NCBI GenBank assembly: GCA_003281085.1
Contig: QCCZ01000006.1
Location: 1-38,177, forward strand
DNA from: OCS155 cluster bacterium AG-349-E07
GTDB lineage: Bacteria > Actinomycetota > Acidimicrobiia > Actinomarinales > Actinomarinaceae
DNA length: 38,177 nt
Reading direction: 5' to 3'
The notes beneath the pieces are model-generated. The model saw nothing but the letters and a program-made list of their open reading frames with translations, did not search any database and had not been told where the DNA came from. Position 1 is the stretch's first letter; every line of letters starts with the position of its first letter. Shown piece after piece: positions 31,622 through 38,177 of the stretch. The position numbers and the translations under genes were made by a program.

Positions 31622-32894
31622 AAAAAAAGAAGTTTGGCTCAATACTTATCCCATTTTTTTATGGTTAGTTTCTGAACCATTAGTTGGTCTAATTGATTCA
31701 AAAATTGCAAGTTATATAGATATTGATGTTCTATCTGCTGTAGGTATAGGAGAAACGGTATATTTTGTCTTTATTTGGATTTTTGTTTTCTTAGCATACG
31801 GTACAACACCTTACGTGTCTAATCTTCATGCAACAAGACAAATACATAAATTAAATTACTTTATAACATTTGGTAGAAAGTCATCAGTACTTATAGGGTT
31901 AATATCTGCTGGTTTACTAATTTTTGCTTCTGCTCAGTTAATTAAATTTTTTGAACCTACAATAGCTGTTTCTTATAAGGCAAATTCATATTTAATATTA
32001 CGAAGCCTTGGTTTGCCATTCTATTTGCTAAATATGCACTCAACAGCTGTATTAAGGGGAATGAAATATCCAAAAATTACTTTATATTCCTCGGCAATTG
32101 TTGGAGTAGCAAATGTGATATTAAGTTACTTTCTTGGGATAGTTTTAAGTTTTGGAGTTGAAGGTATCGCGATTGCAAGTTCAATAGCTTTTTTAATAAG
32201 CTCAATATATTCAACAAAAGTCTTGATTAACACTCAAACGCAAACGTCAAACATTGTTAAGACACATGAAAAAAAAGAGATTAGTAAAAAGTTTTTTAGT
32301 ATTGGATTTTTCATTTTTATAAGATCAATGTTTCTGACACTATTTATGGCTTATTTAAGAAATCAAGCTTCACTAATGTCAATGTCAGAAATAGCTTTGC
32401 AACATGTTTTATTACAACTCTGGTCTTTTGGTTATGTTTTTGTTGATGCATTAGCTATAGCGGCTCAAACCTTAGTCGCAGAACATAAAGCAAAATTTAA
32501 TATATACAAAAATTCAGAACTTAAAAAATATCTCAACAGTCTAACTTTTAAAATTGCAATCTTTCTCTTTATTACTTCCTTTATATTTCTCGAAAATATA
32601 GTTCTTTTAATCACAGAAGCATCTCTTGTTTTAATTATTGATAATGAACTTAAAATGTTGTTTGCATTGAGTTTACTAATTGGAAGCTTCGCATTTTTAT
32701 GGGATGGCGTATTGTTGGGATTAGACAAATCTAAACAGTTTTCAATTATGACTGTTATATCATCTTTGATTGGATTTTTATCTTGTATATATTTGCTAAG
32801 TCAAGACAACTCATTGTCTAGTTTGTGGATAGGTTTAAATTTAAGTTTATTATATCGGGGAGTAATGGGTTTTTACTATCAGATAGAAGATTAA
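31605..32894 (+). CDS. MATE-family efflux transporter (DinF-like)
   Basis: A 429-residue protein with twelve likely membrane helices arranged as two related halves, typical of the multidrug and toxin extrusion family. The N-terminal segment WLVSEPLVGLIDSKIASYIDIDVLSAVGIGETV matches the MATE opening, with its conserved Pro, Asp and Gly. FGVEGIAIASSIAFL and the later ALAIAAQTLVAEHKAKF correspond to family segments in helices 6 and 8. It would export cationic compounds or lipid-like substrates with Na+ or H+. The DinF branch is the closest by eye. ATG starts inside the preceding gene, with no clear ribosome binding site. The stop shares TTAA with the convergent rex gene. Confidence 0.87.
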   Translation: MTNQFKKKEVWLNTYPIFLWLVSEPLVGLIDSKIASYIDIDVLSAVGIGETVYFVFIWIFVFLAYGTTPYVSNLHATRQIHKLNYFITFGRKSSVLIGLISAGLLIFASAQLIKFFEPTIAVSYKANSYLILRSLGLPFYLLNMHSTAVLRGMKYPKITLYSSAIVGVANVILSYFLGIVLSFGVEGIAIASSIAFLISSIYSTKVLINTQTQTSNIVKTHEKKEISKKFFSIGFFIFIRSMFLTLFMAYLRNQASLMSMSEIALQHVLLQLWSFGYVFVDALAIAAQTLVAEHKAKFNIYKNSELKKYLNSLTFKIAIFLFITSFIFLENIVLLITEASLVLIIDNELKMLFALSLLIGSFAFLWDGVLLGLDKSKQFSIMTVISSLIGFLSCIYLLSQDNSLSSLWIGLNLSLLYRGVMGFYYQIED

Positions 32895-33535
32895 TCTACG
32901 GCTTTTAATATTGGTCGGTCAAGATAATAACTTAATATCTGTAATTCTTGTGACAAGTCAACTGATCTTATTTGAACATCTTTAACATTTTTCAGGAGAA
33001 CAGGTGCAAAATTAAGTATTGATCTAACTCCACAATTTATTAAGTCATCTGCCACATCTTGTGCATATTCCCCTGGTGTGGCGATAATTCCTATTGCAAC
33101 ATTGAATTTGTTACAGTAGTCTTGCAAATCACTTAAAGGCTTGACGACAAGTCCTGCAACTTGACTATTAATTTTTTTTGGATCGTCATCGAATAAACCA
33201 ACAACTCCGAAACCTTTGTCTTTGAAACCACCATAGTGAGCTAAAGCAGAACCTAAATTTCCTACTCCAACAATCACAGCACTCCAGCCTTCAACAAGTC
33301 CGAGTTCTAATTGAAGTTGATTTCTAAGTGTAGATACATCATATCCAACACCTCTTGTACCAAGGGTGCCTAAATATGAAAGATCTCTTCTAACTTGAGC
33401 ATCATTAACTTTTGCTAATTCTGCAAGTCTTTTTGAGGAAATACCAATAGCATCTTGGTCAACTTGATCAAGACATTGTAGATAAAGAGGCAGTCTCTTT
33501 ACCGTAGCCGGAGGTATTTTTTTAATTTCTTTCAC
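32891..33535 (-). CDS. rex: Redox-sensing transcriptional repressor Rex
   Basis: Senses the NADH/NAD+ ratio: NADH binding releases it from DNA and derepresses respiratory genes. The N-terminal winged helix includes ISSKRLAELAKVNDAQVRRDLSYLG, with recognition helix at about residues 44-56. The Rossmann domain has VIVGVGNLGSALAHY with GVGNLG at 90-95, GLFDDDP and IGIIATP. The C-terminal helix YYLDRPI swaps between subunits in the dimer. Length is 214 residues, typical. A matching operator is found at 34957-34974 before nuoA, about 1.4 kb away. No equally good site is visible in its own 107-base divergent upstream region, so autoregulation is not supported here. Confidence 0.95.
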   Translation of the reverse strand: MKEIKKIPPATVKRLPLYLQCLDQVDQDAIGISSKRLAELAKVNDAQVRRDLSYLGTLGTRGVGYDVSTLRNQLQLELGLVEGWSAVIVGVGNLGSALAHYGGFKDKGFGVVGLFDDDPKKINSQVAGLVVKPLSDLQDYCNKFNVAIGIIATPGEYAQDVADDLINCGVRSILNFAPVLLKNVKDVQIRSVDLSQELQILSYYLDRPILKAVD

Positions 33536-33642: not shown

Positions 33643-34908
33643 ATGCAAAAATACACTGATTTATATGATGTTTTGATTATTGGGGCCGGTCCTGCTGGCT
33701 CAAATGCAGCAATTTCGTATAAAAAATTAAATCCCACTTTAAAAGTAGGTCTTATAGATAAAGCTGTATTTCCAAGAGATAAATCATGTGGTGATGCAAT
33801 TGGTCCGGGTGTAATTAGTGCCTTAAAAAGGTTCAATAATGAACATATTTTAGAAAACGAGCCACAGGTAGTATCAACTACTCTTTACGGTCCTGAAAAC
33901 ATTGGTATTCAAAATTACATACCCGAAGTAAAGAACAAAGAAGATTCAATAGTTTATGTCATACCAAGGATAGATCTTGACAATAGAATATTAAATTTAG
34001 CAAAAGATTTAGAAGTAGATGTATTTGAAGGTTATAGCTTTGTAGCATTTGAAGAAGACATAGATAAAAAATTAGTCGTAGAAATTAAAAATGAAAACCA
34101 CAATTTAAAATTTGGAACAAAAATTTTAATAGGCGCTGATGGAGCAAATTCACGGGTAAGAAAGCAACTAAATGTTAAAAAGAATAGTGATTGGCATAAG
34201 GCAATAGCGATAAGAGCTTACATAAACAGTCCGAATTATCTTGAAATTTTTAAAGAAAGGTCTTTAATGTTTGAAATTAATGTATCAGCTGAAAAAGGTT
34301 ATGCATGGGCTTTTCCAAGTAAAGGTAATTTATTAAACATCGGAATCGGAGTGCCTTTAAGCATTTTTAAAAAGGAAAAATTAGACATTAATGAGTTACT
34401 TCAAGACTTTATAGAACAGTTAGAAAAAAGAGGAGTAGTAGTTGAGAATGTAAGGGATGAAAAATCATATCTGCTTCCATTTGCATCATCAAGACCAAAG
34501 ATTACACAAAAAGTAAATGTCACCTTAATTGGGGATGCAAGCTCAATGATTAATCCAATGAGTGGGGAAGGAATTTTTTACGGAATGGAATCGGGTTATC
34601 TTTTAGCAAAGAATACTCATAATCTTTTAGACTCACCAGATTTGAACAAGGGCATTAGATCATATGAAAAAGCATTTTCAAAAAGATTTAAAAAGCATTA
34701 TTTAAGTTGTGCATTAGCACGTCTTGTGCTCCAAAGCCCTTTTATGACCAAGAGACTTTTAAAAGTAGCTTCAAACGACCAGGATACAATTGATTTTGTA
34801 GTAGAACTTCTATTTGACGAAGCTTATTTAACATTTGGGGAAGTGGTAAAAATTATGTATAAATTTTTACTCCCTTCAAAATTGCTTTTTTTGGTATCGA
34901 AAAACTAA
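33643..34908 (+). CDS. Geranylgeranyl reductase-family flavoprotein (menaquinone side-chain reductase MenJ-like)
   Basis: FAD enzyme that probably saturates a double bond of a polyprenyl chain, with the menaquinone side chain as the likely substrate. Motifs are the dinucleotide fold VLIIGAGPAGSNAAI near residue 10, SCGDAIGPG near 49, GADGANSRVR, and LIGDASSMINPMSGEGIFYGMESGYLLA (the second FAD motif). Length is 421 residues, as in the family. It lies between rex and nuoA on the nuo strand, 79 bases from nuoA. Similar genes sit near nuo in other actinobacteria, as far as I know. The substrate is inferred from family and neighbours; archaeal-type lipid or chlorophyll roles are unlikely here. 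No ribosome binding site is visible before the ATG. Confidence 0.85.
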   Translation: MQKYTDLYDVLIIGAGPAGSNAAISYKKLNPTLKVGLIDKAVFPRDKSCGDAIGPGVISALKRFNNEHILENEPQVVSTTLYGPENIGIQNYIPEVKNKEDSIVYVIPRIDLDNRILNLAKDLEVDVFEGYSFVAFEEDIDKKLVVEIKNENHNLKFGTKILIGADGANSRVRKQLNVKKNSDWHKAIAIRAYINSPNYLEIFKERSLMFEINVSAEKGYAWAFPSKGNLLNIGIGVPLSIFKKEKLDINELLQDFIEQLEKRGVVVENVRDEKSYLLPFASSRPKITQKVNVTLIGDASSMINPMSGEGIFYGMESGYLLAKNTHNLLDSPDLNKGIRSYEKAFSKRFKKHYLSCALARLVLQSPFMTKRLLKVASNDQDTIDFVVELLFDEAYLTFGEVVKIMYKFLLPSKLLFLVSKN

Positions 34909-34956
34909 TAGTCAGATAAAAATAACCTGATATTAATAGTAAAATAAGAGGTAGGC

Positions 34957-34974
34957 TTGTGAAAATTTTCACAA
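34957..34974. promoter_or_regulatory. Rex operator before nuoA
   Basis: TTGTGAAAATTTTCACAA is a perfect 18-base palindrome that matches the known Rex consensus TTGTGAA-N4-TTCACAA at every fixed position. It lies 14 bases from the nuoA ATG (34988), just upstream of the GGAGGG ribosome binding site (34979-34984). A possible -10 box, TAAAAT at 34940-34945, would place the operator over the transcription start. A rex gene is present 1.4 kb away. This predicts repression of complex I genes at low NADH. Confidence 0.9.
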
Positions 34975-34987
34975 ATACGGAGGGAAC

Positions 34988-35392
34988 ATGACTGATTGGT
35001 TACCTATTTTGATAATGTTTATTGTTGCTGTAGGGTTTGCACTAGCTTCGCTTGGTGCTTCGTACTTATTGTCTCCTAAAAAAGCAACGCCTGAAAAATT
35101 AGCACCATATGAATGTGGTATATTTCCTGAAGTAGAACCTTCGCAGCGATTTCCAGTTAAATTCTATATGGTTGCAATGCTATATATTGTTTTTGATATT
35201 GAAATTATATTTTTATTTGCTTGGGCCACAAGATTTAATGATCTTGGTTGGTATGGAATATTAGCAATTTCTATTTTTACTTTTTTCGTTCTTGAGACTT
35301 TGTATTATGTCTGGAAAAAAGGAGTGCTTGACTGGAACATTCCAAGAAGAGAACGTTATCTAAAGCAAGATTTAACTAAAGAGGCAGCTTAA
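34988..35392 (+). CDS. nuoA: NADH-quinone oxidoreductase subunit A
   Basis: Small membrane subunit of complex I near the quinone chamber, 134 residues with three predicted helices (about 5-27, 62-82 and 88-112). Conserved segments are [44 protein letters not shown], with the ND3-type loop Cys (YECG) and the membrane-embedded Glu. ATG follows GGAGGG, one of the best ribosome binding sites in the window, and lies just downstream of the Rex operator. It shares one base with nuoB (TAATG). It heads the nuo gene block. Confidence 0.95.
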
Positions 35393-35853
35393 TGTATACA
35401 CCTGACAACATTCTTACAACAACTATTGATAAAGCTGTAAGGTGGTCTCGAACCCAGTCTATGTGGCCAGTAACCTTCGGTCTTGCATGTTGTGCAATAG
35501 AAATGATGGCAGCTGGTAGTGCTAAATATGATTTAGCGAGATATGGGATGGAAGTTTTTAGAGCATCTCCAAGACAAGCAGATTTAATGATTGTTGCGGG
35601 AAGAGTTTCACAAAAAATGGCTCCTGTTTTAAGACAAGTATATGACCAGATGGCTGATCCAAAATGGGTTATCGCAATGGGTGCTTGTTCATCAACCGGT
35701 GGAATGTTTAACAATTATGCATTAGTTCAGGGAGTAGATCATATTGTACCAGTTGATATTTATGTTCCAGGTTGTCCTCCTGGACCACAGTCCTTGATGC
35801 ATGGAATTCTAACTTTGCATGACAAGATCATGGATGGTGAGATAAATCGATGA
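35392..35853 (+). CDS. nuoB: NADH-quinone oxidoreductase subunit B
   Basis: Peripheral-arm subunit carrying the terminal cluster N2, which passes electrons to quinone. The four cluster ligands are visible: adjacent C33-C34 in [12 protein letters not shown]99 in [10 protein letters not shown] and C128 in [29 protein letters not shown] is also typical. Length is 153 residues, near the short bacterial form. Its start shares one base with the nuoA stop, and its end overlaps nuoC by four. No anomalies. Confidence 0.96.
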
Positions 35854-36263
35854 GTTCTGAAATAATTAATACATCTGTTGAAGAATACAAAAAATTAGTT
35901 GAGTCTTTGCATTCGGAAAATTATGAGATGATGGTAGATCTAACTGTTGTAGATTGGTTTAGAAAAAAAGAACCGAGATTTGAGGTGGTTGTTCAATTTT
36001 TATCTATTTCAAAAAATCAAAGGAAAACAATAAAAGTTTTTGTTGATGATGAAGGTTTATCAATACCATCAATAACTGATATTTACCCAAGTGCCAATTT
36101 TTATGAAAGAGAAGCTTTTGATATGTTTGGTATAAATTTTTTAGAACATCCTGATCTAACAAGAATTTTGATGCCAGATGATTGGAATGGCCACCCTTTA
36201 AGAAAAAATTATGGTTCTGGCAGAATCCCAGTCCAATTTAAAAATGCACCAAAGGTTGAATAA
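35850..36263 (+). CDS. nuoC: NADH-quinone oxidoreductase subunit C (short)
   Basis: Structural subunit of the complex I peripheral arm (30 kDa subunit). The conserved core is present: [75 protein letters not shown]. At 137 residues it is shorter than most actinobacterial homologues, which carry a longer N-terminal part; the missing piece is upstream of the core. The ATG start is fixed by the four-base overlap with nuoB. NuoD begins immediately after the stop, separate rather than fused as in E. coli. Confidence 0.93.
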
Positions 36264-37628
36264 TTGAAGAAAGATACTAGAAAAAATAAATTTAAAGACA
36301 AGTTCGATTTCTGGGCAACAAATTCTGAAGAAGGCGGCTGGAACATTTCTTCTACTGATGAAGGCTCTCAGAAAATGCTTGAAGAAGAAAATGCAAAACA
36401 AATAAAAATTCAAACAGGGACAGATGTCATCGATGATTTTGTAATCGATGAAGACACTTCTGATGATGAAAGAATGATTGTTAATATGGGACCTCAGCAT
36501 CCATCAACTCATGGTGTTTTAAGGCTACAAGCTGAACTAGAGGGAGAAGTAGTTAGAAGAGTTAAGCCAATAATTGGATACTTACATACTGGAATGGAGA
36601 AAACTGGAGAAGAATTAAATTATTTTCAAGGTCCAACAAATACAACAAGAATGGATTATTTATCTCCATTATTTAATGAGTTGGTCTTTTCCTTAACTAC
36701 AGAAAAATTAATTGGGATTGAAGTTCCAGATCGAGCAAAAAATATAAGAATTCTTATGACAGAGCTAAACAGAATATCTTCACATTTAGTTGCTCTGGCA
36801 ACTGGTGGAATGGATATAGGTGCTTTATCAATGATGATTTTTGGGTTTAGGGAGCGCGAGTTAATACTTAATTTTTTTGAAAAAACTACAGGTCTAAGAA
36901 TGAACCATAATTATATTCGTCCAGGCGGAGTAGCAGCAGATCTTCCTGATGGATGGCAAAAAGATATCGAAGAAATTTTAAAAATAATTCCTGAAAAACT
37001 TCAAGATTACGATGATATGCTGCTTGACAATCCAATTTGGAAAGGACGTTTACAAAACGTAGGTATTCTCACAACAAAAGAGTGTTTTGCTTACGGTGTT
37101 ACAGGACCAAGTTTAAGAGCAAGTGGTCATTCTTGGGATTTGAGAAAAGCTCAACCATATTCTGGAATTGAAAACTTTGAATTCGAAGTACCAGTTCTGA
37201 ATGAAGGAGATGTTTTTGCAAGATGGAGAATTAAAGTTCTTGAAATTTTTGAGAGTTTAAAAATTGTAGAACAAGCACTTAACAAAATGCCAAAAGGTCC
37301 ATACAAAATTCAAGACAAAAAAATTACACCTCCGCCTAGAAAAAGACTTGATGAGTCTATGGAAGCACTAATTCATCATTTTAAAATTTACACTGAGGGA
37401 TTTAAAGTTCCTGAAGGAGATGCATATGTTGCTATAGAATCTCCAAGAGGAGAGCTCGGTTGTTATATAGTTTCTGATGGTTCTTCAAAACCATACAGAA
37501 TGCACGTCAGAGGTCCTTCATTTTGTAATCTTCAGGCCTTGCCTGTAATAATGACTGATAGTCCAATTGCCGACGCTGTTGCTGCTATCGCATCATTAGA
37601 TCCCGTGATTGGAGATGTAGACAGATGA
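36264..37628 (+). CDS. nuoD: NADH-quinone oxidoreductase subunit D with N-terminal extension
   Basis: 49 kDa subunit that forms the quinone pocket with NuoB. The canonical opening MIVNMGPQHPSTHGVLRLQAEL starts only near residue 71. It is preceded by a charged extension (residues 1-70: basic first, then acidic, with VIDDFVIDEDTSDDE). Later segments are GYLHTGMEKTGEE, GPTNTTRMDYLSP, SSHLVALATGGMDIGA, MNHNYIRPGG and ESPRGELGCYIVSDGSSKPYRMHVRGPSF. TTG directly follows the nuoC stop. Length is 454 residues. A later start would remove the extension, but no good start codon lies close to the core. The ATGA overlap leads into nuoE. Confidence 0.94.
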   Translation: MKKDTRKNKFKDKFDFWATNSEEGGWNISSTDEGSQKMLEEENAKQIKIQTGTDVIDDFVIDEDTSDDERMIVNMGPQHPSTHGVLRLQAELEGEVVRRVKPIIGYLHTGMEKTGEELNYFQGPTNTTRMDYLSPLFNELVFSLTTEKLIGIEVPDRAKNIRILMTELNRISSHLVALATGGMDIGALSMMIFGFRERELILNFFEKTTGLRMNHNYIRPGGVAADLPDGWQKDIEEILKIIPEKLQDYDDMLLDNPIWKGRLQNVGILTTKECFAYGVTGPSLRASGHSWDLRKAQPYSGIENFEFEVPVLNEGDVFARWRIKVLEIFESLKIVEQALNKMPKGPYKIQDKKITPPPRKRLDESMEALIHHFKIYTEGFKVPEGDAYVAIESPRGELGCYIVSDGSSKPYRMHVRGPSFCNLQALPVIMTDSPIADAVAAIASLDPVIGDVDR

Positions 37629-38177
37629 GCTGGAATGATTCAATGATAAAGCAAGCTAAAAAGATAATAAAAATGTATCCCCAGAAAAGATCAGCAATTG
37701 GTCCACTTTTACACCTTGCACAAAGTAAAGATGGCTATATTTCCGACGACTCTATTGCCGTAATTAGTGAATTGGTGGGCATTACAGAGGTTCAGGTAAA
37801 ATCGGTGTCAACTTTTTATTCTATGTACAAGCAAGAACCAACAGGAAAATATCTTTTAAGTGTTTGTAAATCTATTTCCTGTGAGATAAACAATTCTAAA
37901 GAGATAATTGATGTTGTTAAAGACTTTACAGGGCTAAACAATAACGAAACTGATGAGAACGACTTATTTACATTTGAAGCAGTTGAATGCATAGGAGCAT
38001 GCGGTGGAGCTCCTGCAATGCAAATAAATTATGAAACTGTTGAAGGTCTGTCTTCTGAAAACACTATAAAACTCTGCGAGTGGCTAAAAGAAGAACAACC
38101 CGATGTCATAATTGCTGAAGAAATGCAAGATAATTTCGGAGGAACAAAATCTTTTGACTGGGCTATTAAAGACCAAT
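37625..38177 (+). CDS. nuoE: NADH-quinone oxidoreductase subunit E (partial, runs off the window)
   Basis: 24 kDa subunit with the [2Fe-2S] cluster N1a near the NADH end of complex I. My translation from the ATG at 37625 stays open to the window end, about 184 residues. The thioredoxin-like cluster ligands are C81 and C86 in VCKSISCE, and C122 and C126 in CIGACGG. The N-terminal helical part reads IGPLLHLAQSKDGYISDD and VKSVSTFYSMYKQEPTG, as in the family. The reading continues beyond the usual end of the E. coli protein, so there is a C-terminal extension of unknown length. The start overlaps the nuoD stop (ATGA). The remaining nuo genes presumably follow. Confidence 0.94.
   Translation, partial: MSWNDSMIKQAKKIIKMYPQKRSAIGPLLHLAQSKDGYISDDSIAVISELVGITEVQVKSVSTFYSMYKQEPTGKYLLSVCKSISCEINNSKEIIDVVKDFTGLNNNETDENDLFTFEAVECIGACGGAPAMQINYETVEGLSSENTIKLCEWLKEEQPDVIIAEEMQDNFGGTKSFDWAIKDQ

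Follow-up and report, generated by a model that had tools for sequence, protein, structure and literature searches.

An 18-base perfect palindrome, TTGTGAAAATTTTCACAA, lies directly before nuoA in Candidatus Actinomarina, and I put the probability that it is a genuine operator of the redox-sensing repressor Rex at roughly 0.92, with binding, repression and the response to NADH predicted from sequence. The observations themselves are the palindrome, how strongly it is conserved, the presence alongside it of a Rex with retained contact residues, and its specificity for the nuo genes of the NADH type. The window, meaning the whole stretch of 38,177 bases analysed here, is contig C6 of a 24-contig, 954,793-base genome (~0.95 Mb), and the features that matter for the argument are as follows.

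32891-33535, minus strand: rex, redox-sensing repressor of 214 aa, GTG start as listed (PF06971 and PF02629)
33643-34908, plus strand: geranylgeranyl-reductase family gene (GGR, MenJ-like; TIGR02032 above cut-off)
34940-34945, plus strand: putative -10-like hexamer TAAAAT, from the alignment of nuoA promoters
34957-34974, no strand assigned: predicted Rex operator (ROP) TTGTGAAAATTTTCACAA, perfect palindrome conserved in 38/38 nuoA promoters of the genus
34979-34984, plus strand: Shine-Dalgarno sequence GGAGGG of nuoA
34988-35392, plus strand: nuoA, first gene of the NADH-type complex I operon (PF00507)
35392-35853, plus strand: nuoB (PF01058)
35850-36263, plus strand: nuoC (PF00329)
36264-37628, plus strand: nuoD (PF00346)
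37625-38176, plus strand: nuoE, cut by the contig end (PF01257)

The probable operator at nuoA and its conservation

The palindrome equals its own reverse complement, as originally claimed, and ends 13 bases before the nuoA ATG at 34988. It carries the Rex operator sequence TTGTGAA-N4-TTCACAA and is the window's single match to that pattern at 0 mismatches; allowing up to 3 gives 9 matches against 6.9 expected, which is the chance level, so only the perfect match is meaningful. Across the whole genome 3 perfect matches were observed against ~0.013 expected from base composition. Two further one-mismatch matches in this genome (C1:204400 and C5:12784) fall within coding sequence and were taken as chance. 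Over 42 genomes the pattern with at most 1 mismatch was matched 192 times, against 43 for a reversed control pattern.

A search of relatives for the palindrome, proposed as a check in the original prediction, found it perfect before nuoA in all 38 genus genomes with a readable nuoA promoter. None of the 14 fixed bases differs among them, while the flanks and the two central bases do, and the distance to the nuoA start is 13-18 nt, mostly 13. Such conservation excludes chance. The gene order rex-GGR-nuoA is likewise stable (38 of 40 loci), and the GGR gene, which has no operator of its own, is taken from its position as a synteny partner only. Two public records filed as Chloroflexi bacterium SAT182 and Flavobacteriaceae bacterium NAT175 contain Actinomarina rex-GGR-nuoA loci, with Rex identities of 88% and 83%, respectively, and their titles look wrong.

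The operator is also specific to NADH-linked genes. Actinomarina genomes carry a second nuo cluster, without EFG, which is presumed to be F420-dependent (PMC7771536). The cluster in the window includes nuoE and is therefore of the NADH-oxidising type. The operator stands before the NADH-type nuoA in 38/38 genomes and before the F420-type nuo cluster in 0/21 loci, where the best match has at least 3 mismatches; it thus tracks NADH oxidation, and the contrast supports the published idea that the second cluster does not oxidise NADH. Outside the genus, a class-wide search found an operator match, itself with 2 mismatches, at nuoA in only 1 of 30 other Acidimicrobiia, in a search that may miss high-GC operators, and so the Rex-nuoA link does not seem ancient across the class. 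Despite the unconserved nuoA operator, of the 34 other Acidimicrobiia in which a single contig carries rex and nuoA, 32 have the two genes within 30 kb of each other.

The -10-like hexamer reads TANAAT in nearly all relatives and stands ~11 nt before the operator at a near-constant distance, and from this the operator would probably span about +5 to +22 of the nuoA transcript, a placement that depends on the alignment-derived -10 element. A consensus promoter scan called no plus-strand promoter at nuoA, and no clear -35 was found there.

Rex and the rival readers of the palindrome

The original prediction placed rex about 1.4 kb away on the other strand, and its start is indeed 1,421 bases from the operator, on the minus strand; no other gene in the whole genome has a Rex N-terminal domain. 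The product combines an N-terminal Rex winged helix (PF06971) with a C-terminal NAD-binding Rossmann domain (PF02629), both above cut-off, scores 272.9 bits against a cut-off of 226 for the NCBIfam Rex equivalog NF003992, matches solved Rex chains in the PDB (E 6e-47) and is 97% identical to the Rex of a record titled Candidatus Actinomarina. Compared with Thermotoga maritima Rex in its DNA complex (PMC8836258), the protein shares 9 of the 12 residues that contact DNA (R12, S33, Q46, R48, S52, G58, R60, G61 and Y64) and differs in three (K49 to R, K43 to N and E34 to K). The NAD(H) residues N92, A96, Y100, D115, K120 and D191 are kept, among them the nicotinamide tyrosine (Y100) and the switch aspartate (D191). 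Judged by these domains and residues the gene is a true rex, and its product is predicted to bind DNA in an NADH-sensitive manner. The claim that rex lacks an upstream site was borne out: in the 130 bases before it the best 18-mer has at least 4 mismatches in all Actinomarina loci checked, and from this missing site rex is predicted to be free of autoregulation here.

Proteins of the CRP/FNR family would read a palindrome of the form TGTGA-N6-TCACA, and the sequence before nuoA fits their half-site spacing exactly. However, a cNMP-binding (CRP/FNR) domain was found in 0 of 42 genus genomes by a search that was positive in 10 of 14 control genomes, and the bases conserved beyond the CRP core, the inner AA/TT and the outer T/A, are those that Rex requires. 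With the protein missing from 42/42 genomes I reject this reader as exceedingly improbable. The inverted repeat could also act as RNA, as a hairpin in the nuoA leader that controls translation or stability, and a 7-bp stem just before the Shine-Dalgarno sequence (-7.4 kcal/mol for the local segment) is possible. But the 14 arm bases are invariant in 38 genomes with no compensatory change, which is the wrong pattern for a fold, the identical sequence recurs before unrelated genes at distances of 13-76 nt, and a matching DNA-binding protein is present; a hairpin is accordingly rejected as highly improbable.

A third possibility is that the palindrome serves some other, unrecognised regulator and that Rex acts at different sites, for the genome does encode WhiB proteins and further small regulators, and Rex binding is a prediction. 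Against this, the sequence is identical with the Rex consensus in the literature (TTGTGAAWWWWTTCACAA for S. aureus; TTGTGAANNNNTTCACAA as the search motif for S. avermitilis), nuo and WhiB genes are Rex targets in Streptomyces, and the base-contacting Rex residues are kept except for K49, replaced by R, all of which makes another regulator very unlikely. A Rex operator that controls nuo, with rex nearby, is strongly supported as a prediction: the site is conserved, so are the Rex residues, and CRP/FNR proteins are missing.

Other genes that carry the site

The original prediction held that control is aimed at complex I within a self-contained circuit, and on both counts it was too narrow. In this genome a WhiB1-like gene and the gene for a 64-aa protein are also preceded by perfect operators, and the gene for a rhodopsin proton pump by a two-mismatch site; relatives add a UbiA/UbiE operon. 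This list rests on pattern searches. The WhiB1-like gene (WhiB class B) has a perfect operator in 27/27 genomes (C3:57157 in this genome; L008:5158-5175), in an intergenic region shared with a divergent GDPD gene, and WhiB1 is the closest to its product among solved structures. No operator was found before WhiB classes A and C. The 64-aa Cys/His-rich protein (C-x4-C ... C-x2-H), encoded ahead of a small HMA/CopA-like pair, has a perfect operator in 37/37 genomes (C1:255459 in this genome; L007:5460-5477), nearly always with the core TATA; searches of Pfam, NCBIfam and PDB sequences gave no family match for it. A paralogue of it in this genome (~53%) lacks such a site. Two relatives have an extra perfect operator upstream of a gene for a 157-aa putative lipoprotein (L352:1752-1769 and L353:1577-1594).

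An operon of a PNPOx-UbiA fusion followed by a UbiE-type methyltransferase has a one-mismatch site (TTGTGCATTATTTCACAA or close variants) in 29/29 genomes, 18-20 nt before the PNPOx-UbiA start (L179:1793-1810; L230-L259). In the present genome this promoter is lost at a contig end, and the site is known from relatives. The operon probably serves late synthesis of menaquinone or a menaquinone-like quinone.

Thirty rhodopsin loci were compared, and 19 have a canonical or near-canonical site before the proton-pump gene. In three of these, all from one clade, twin perfect operators 41 bp apart lie between the rhodopsin gene and a divergent class II photolyase gene, each ~30 nt from one of the two start codons (L178:1583-1641, which is G041:C1:34082-34140; also L201 and L202). 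One more locus has a perfect site and two have a site with one mismatch, about 60 nt upstream, and the other 13, including that of the present genome with its two mismatches, have 1-2 mismatches at 32-34 nt in the form nnGTGAT-N4-TTCACAA, a block that is largely invariant in the rhodopsin promoter alignment. Ten further loci (L218-L227) have a putative variant site, TGTGAACGTTTCACA (TGTGAA-N3-TTCACA), 29-30 nt upstream, with a spacer of 3 bp rather than 4 bp and invariant in its clade; 1 of the 30 loci has no site. For the 19 canonical or near-canonical loci, 0-0.2% of shuffles of the 110 upstream bases matched as well as the real sequence did; these loci are related, so that the trials are not independent. 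From these sites Rex control of rhodopsin is likely, if unproven, and I would give it somewhat better than even odds. Full-text literature searches for Rex with rhodopsin, most subscription journals lying outside their scope, returned no relevant paper, and such control appears to be unreported in the searchable literature.

A proposed circuit and its known relatives

At a low ratio of NADH to NAD+, a Rex dimer would occupy the operator between the nuoA -10 element and the ribosome-binding site and block transcription of the NADH-type nuo operon. As NADH builds up it would bind Rex and release it, so that complex I could be made and NADH re-oxidised. The nuoA operator would belong to a small Rex regulon, with the WhiB1-like regulator and the 64-aa Cys/His-rich protein as further members and with a probable extension to late quinone synthesis and to the rhodopsin proton pump. 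I lean, with some reserve, towards a reading in which a single NADH sensor, Rex, has joint control of complex I of the NADH type, of late quinone synthesis and of the light-driven pump (together, in one clade, with the class II photolyase divergent from it), and photoheterotrophy would then be tuned by the NADH/NAD+ ratio and not by a light sensor. The data hint that one sensor couples respiration to light use.

To my knowledge, the regulation of proteorhodopsin-type genes in uncultured oligotrophs is largely an open question, and an NADH-sensing operator before a rhodopsin gene is a specific and testable proposal about it. A photoheterotroph that ranks among the most streamlined of the surface ocean would also gain a concrete regulatory circuit; Rex goes unmentioned in the Actinomarinales genome paper, which credits these bacteria with 'little regulatory capabilities' (PMC7771536).

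The closest known system is that of S. avermitilis, where Rex, bound to TTGTGAANNNNTTCACAA-like operators, holds nuoA1-N1 and the WhiB gene wblE under direct repression until NADH releases it, and where wblE is named as a WhiB1 homologue (PMC5355995). This control has been demonstrated, so the nuo and WhiB parts of the proposed regulon are of an already known type, and the WhiB under the Actinomarina operator is likewise closest to WhiB1. The two systems differ in other respects. The Actinomarina sites are perfect whereas those of S. avermitilis have 1-3 mismatches, and the nuoA operator would sit at about +5 to +22 instead of -42 to -16. In Streptomyces rex is autoregulated, unlike Actinomarina rex, which lacks a site in the 130 nt upstream in the loci checked. 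Cytochrome bd (cydAB; PF01654), a target of the Streptomyces-type Rex regulon, was found in 0/42 genus genomes by a search positive in 10 of 14 control genomes. Conversely, the UbiA/UbiE operon, the gene for the 64-aa protein and rhodopsin carry sites in Actinomarina, unlike in S. avermitilis. For S. aureus, the operator consensus TTGTGAAWWWWTTCACAA, as quoted in two papers (PMC5355995; PMC2883068), is fitted letter for letter by TTGTGAAAATTTTCACAA. The S. aureus Rex targets are genes of fermentation and nitrate respiration, whereas in Actinomarina the same operator would serve genes of aerobic respiration and, probably, of light energy.
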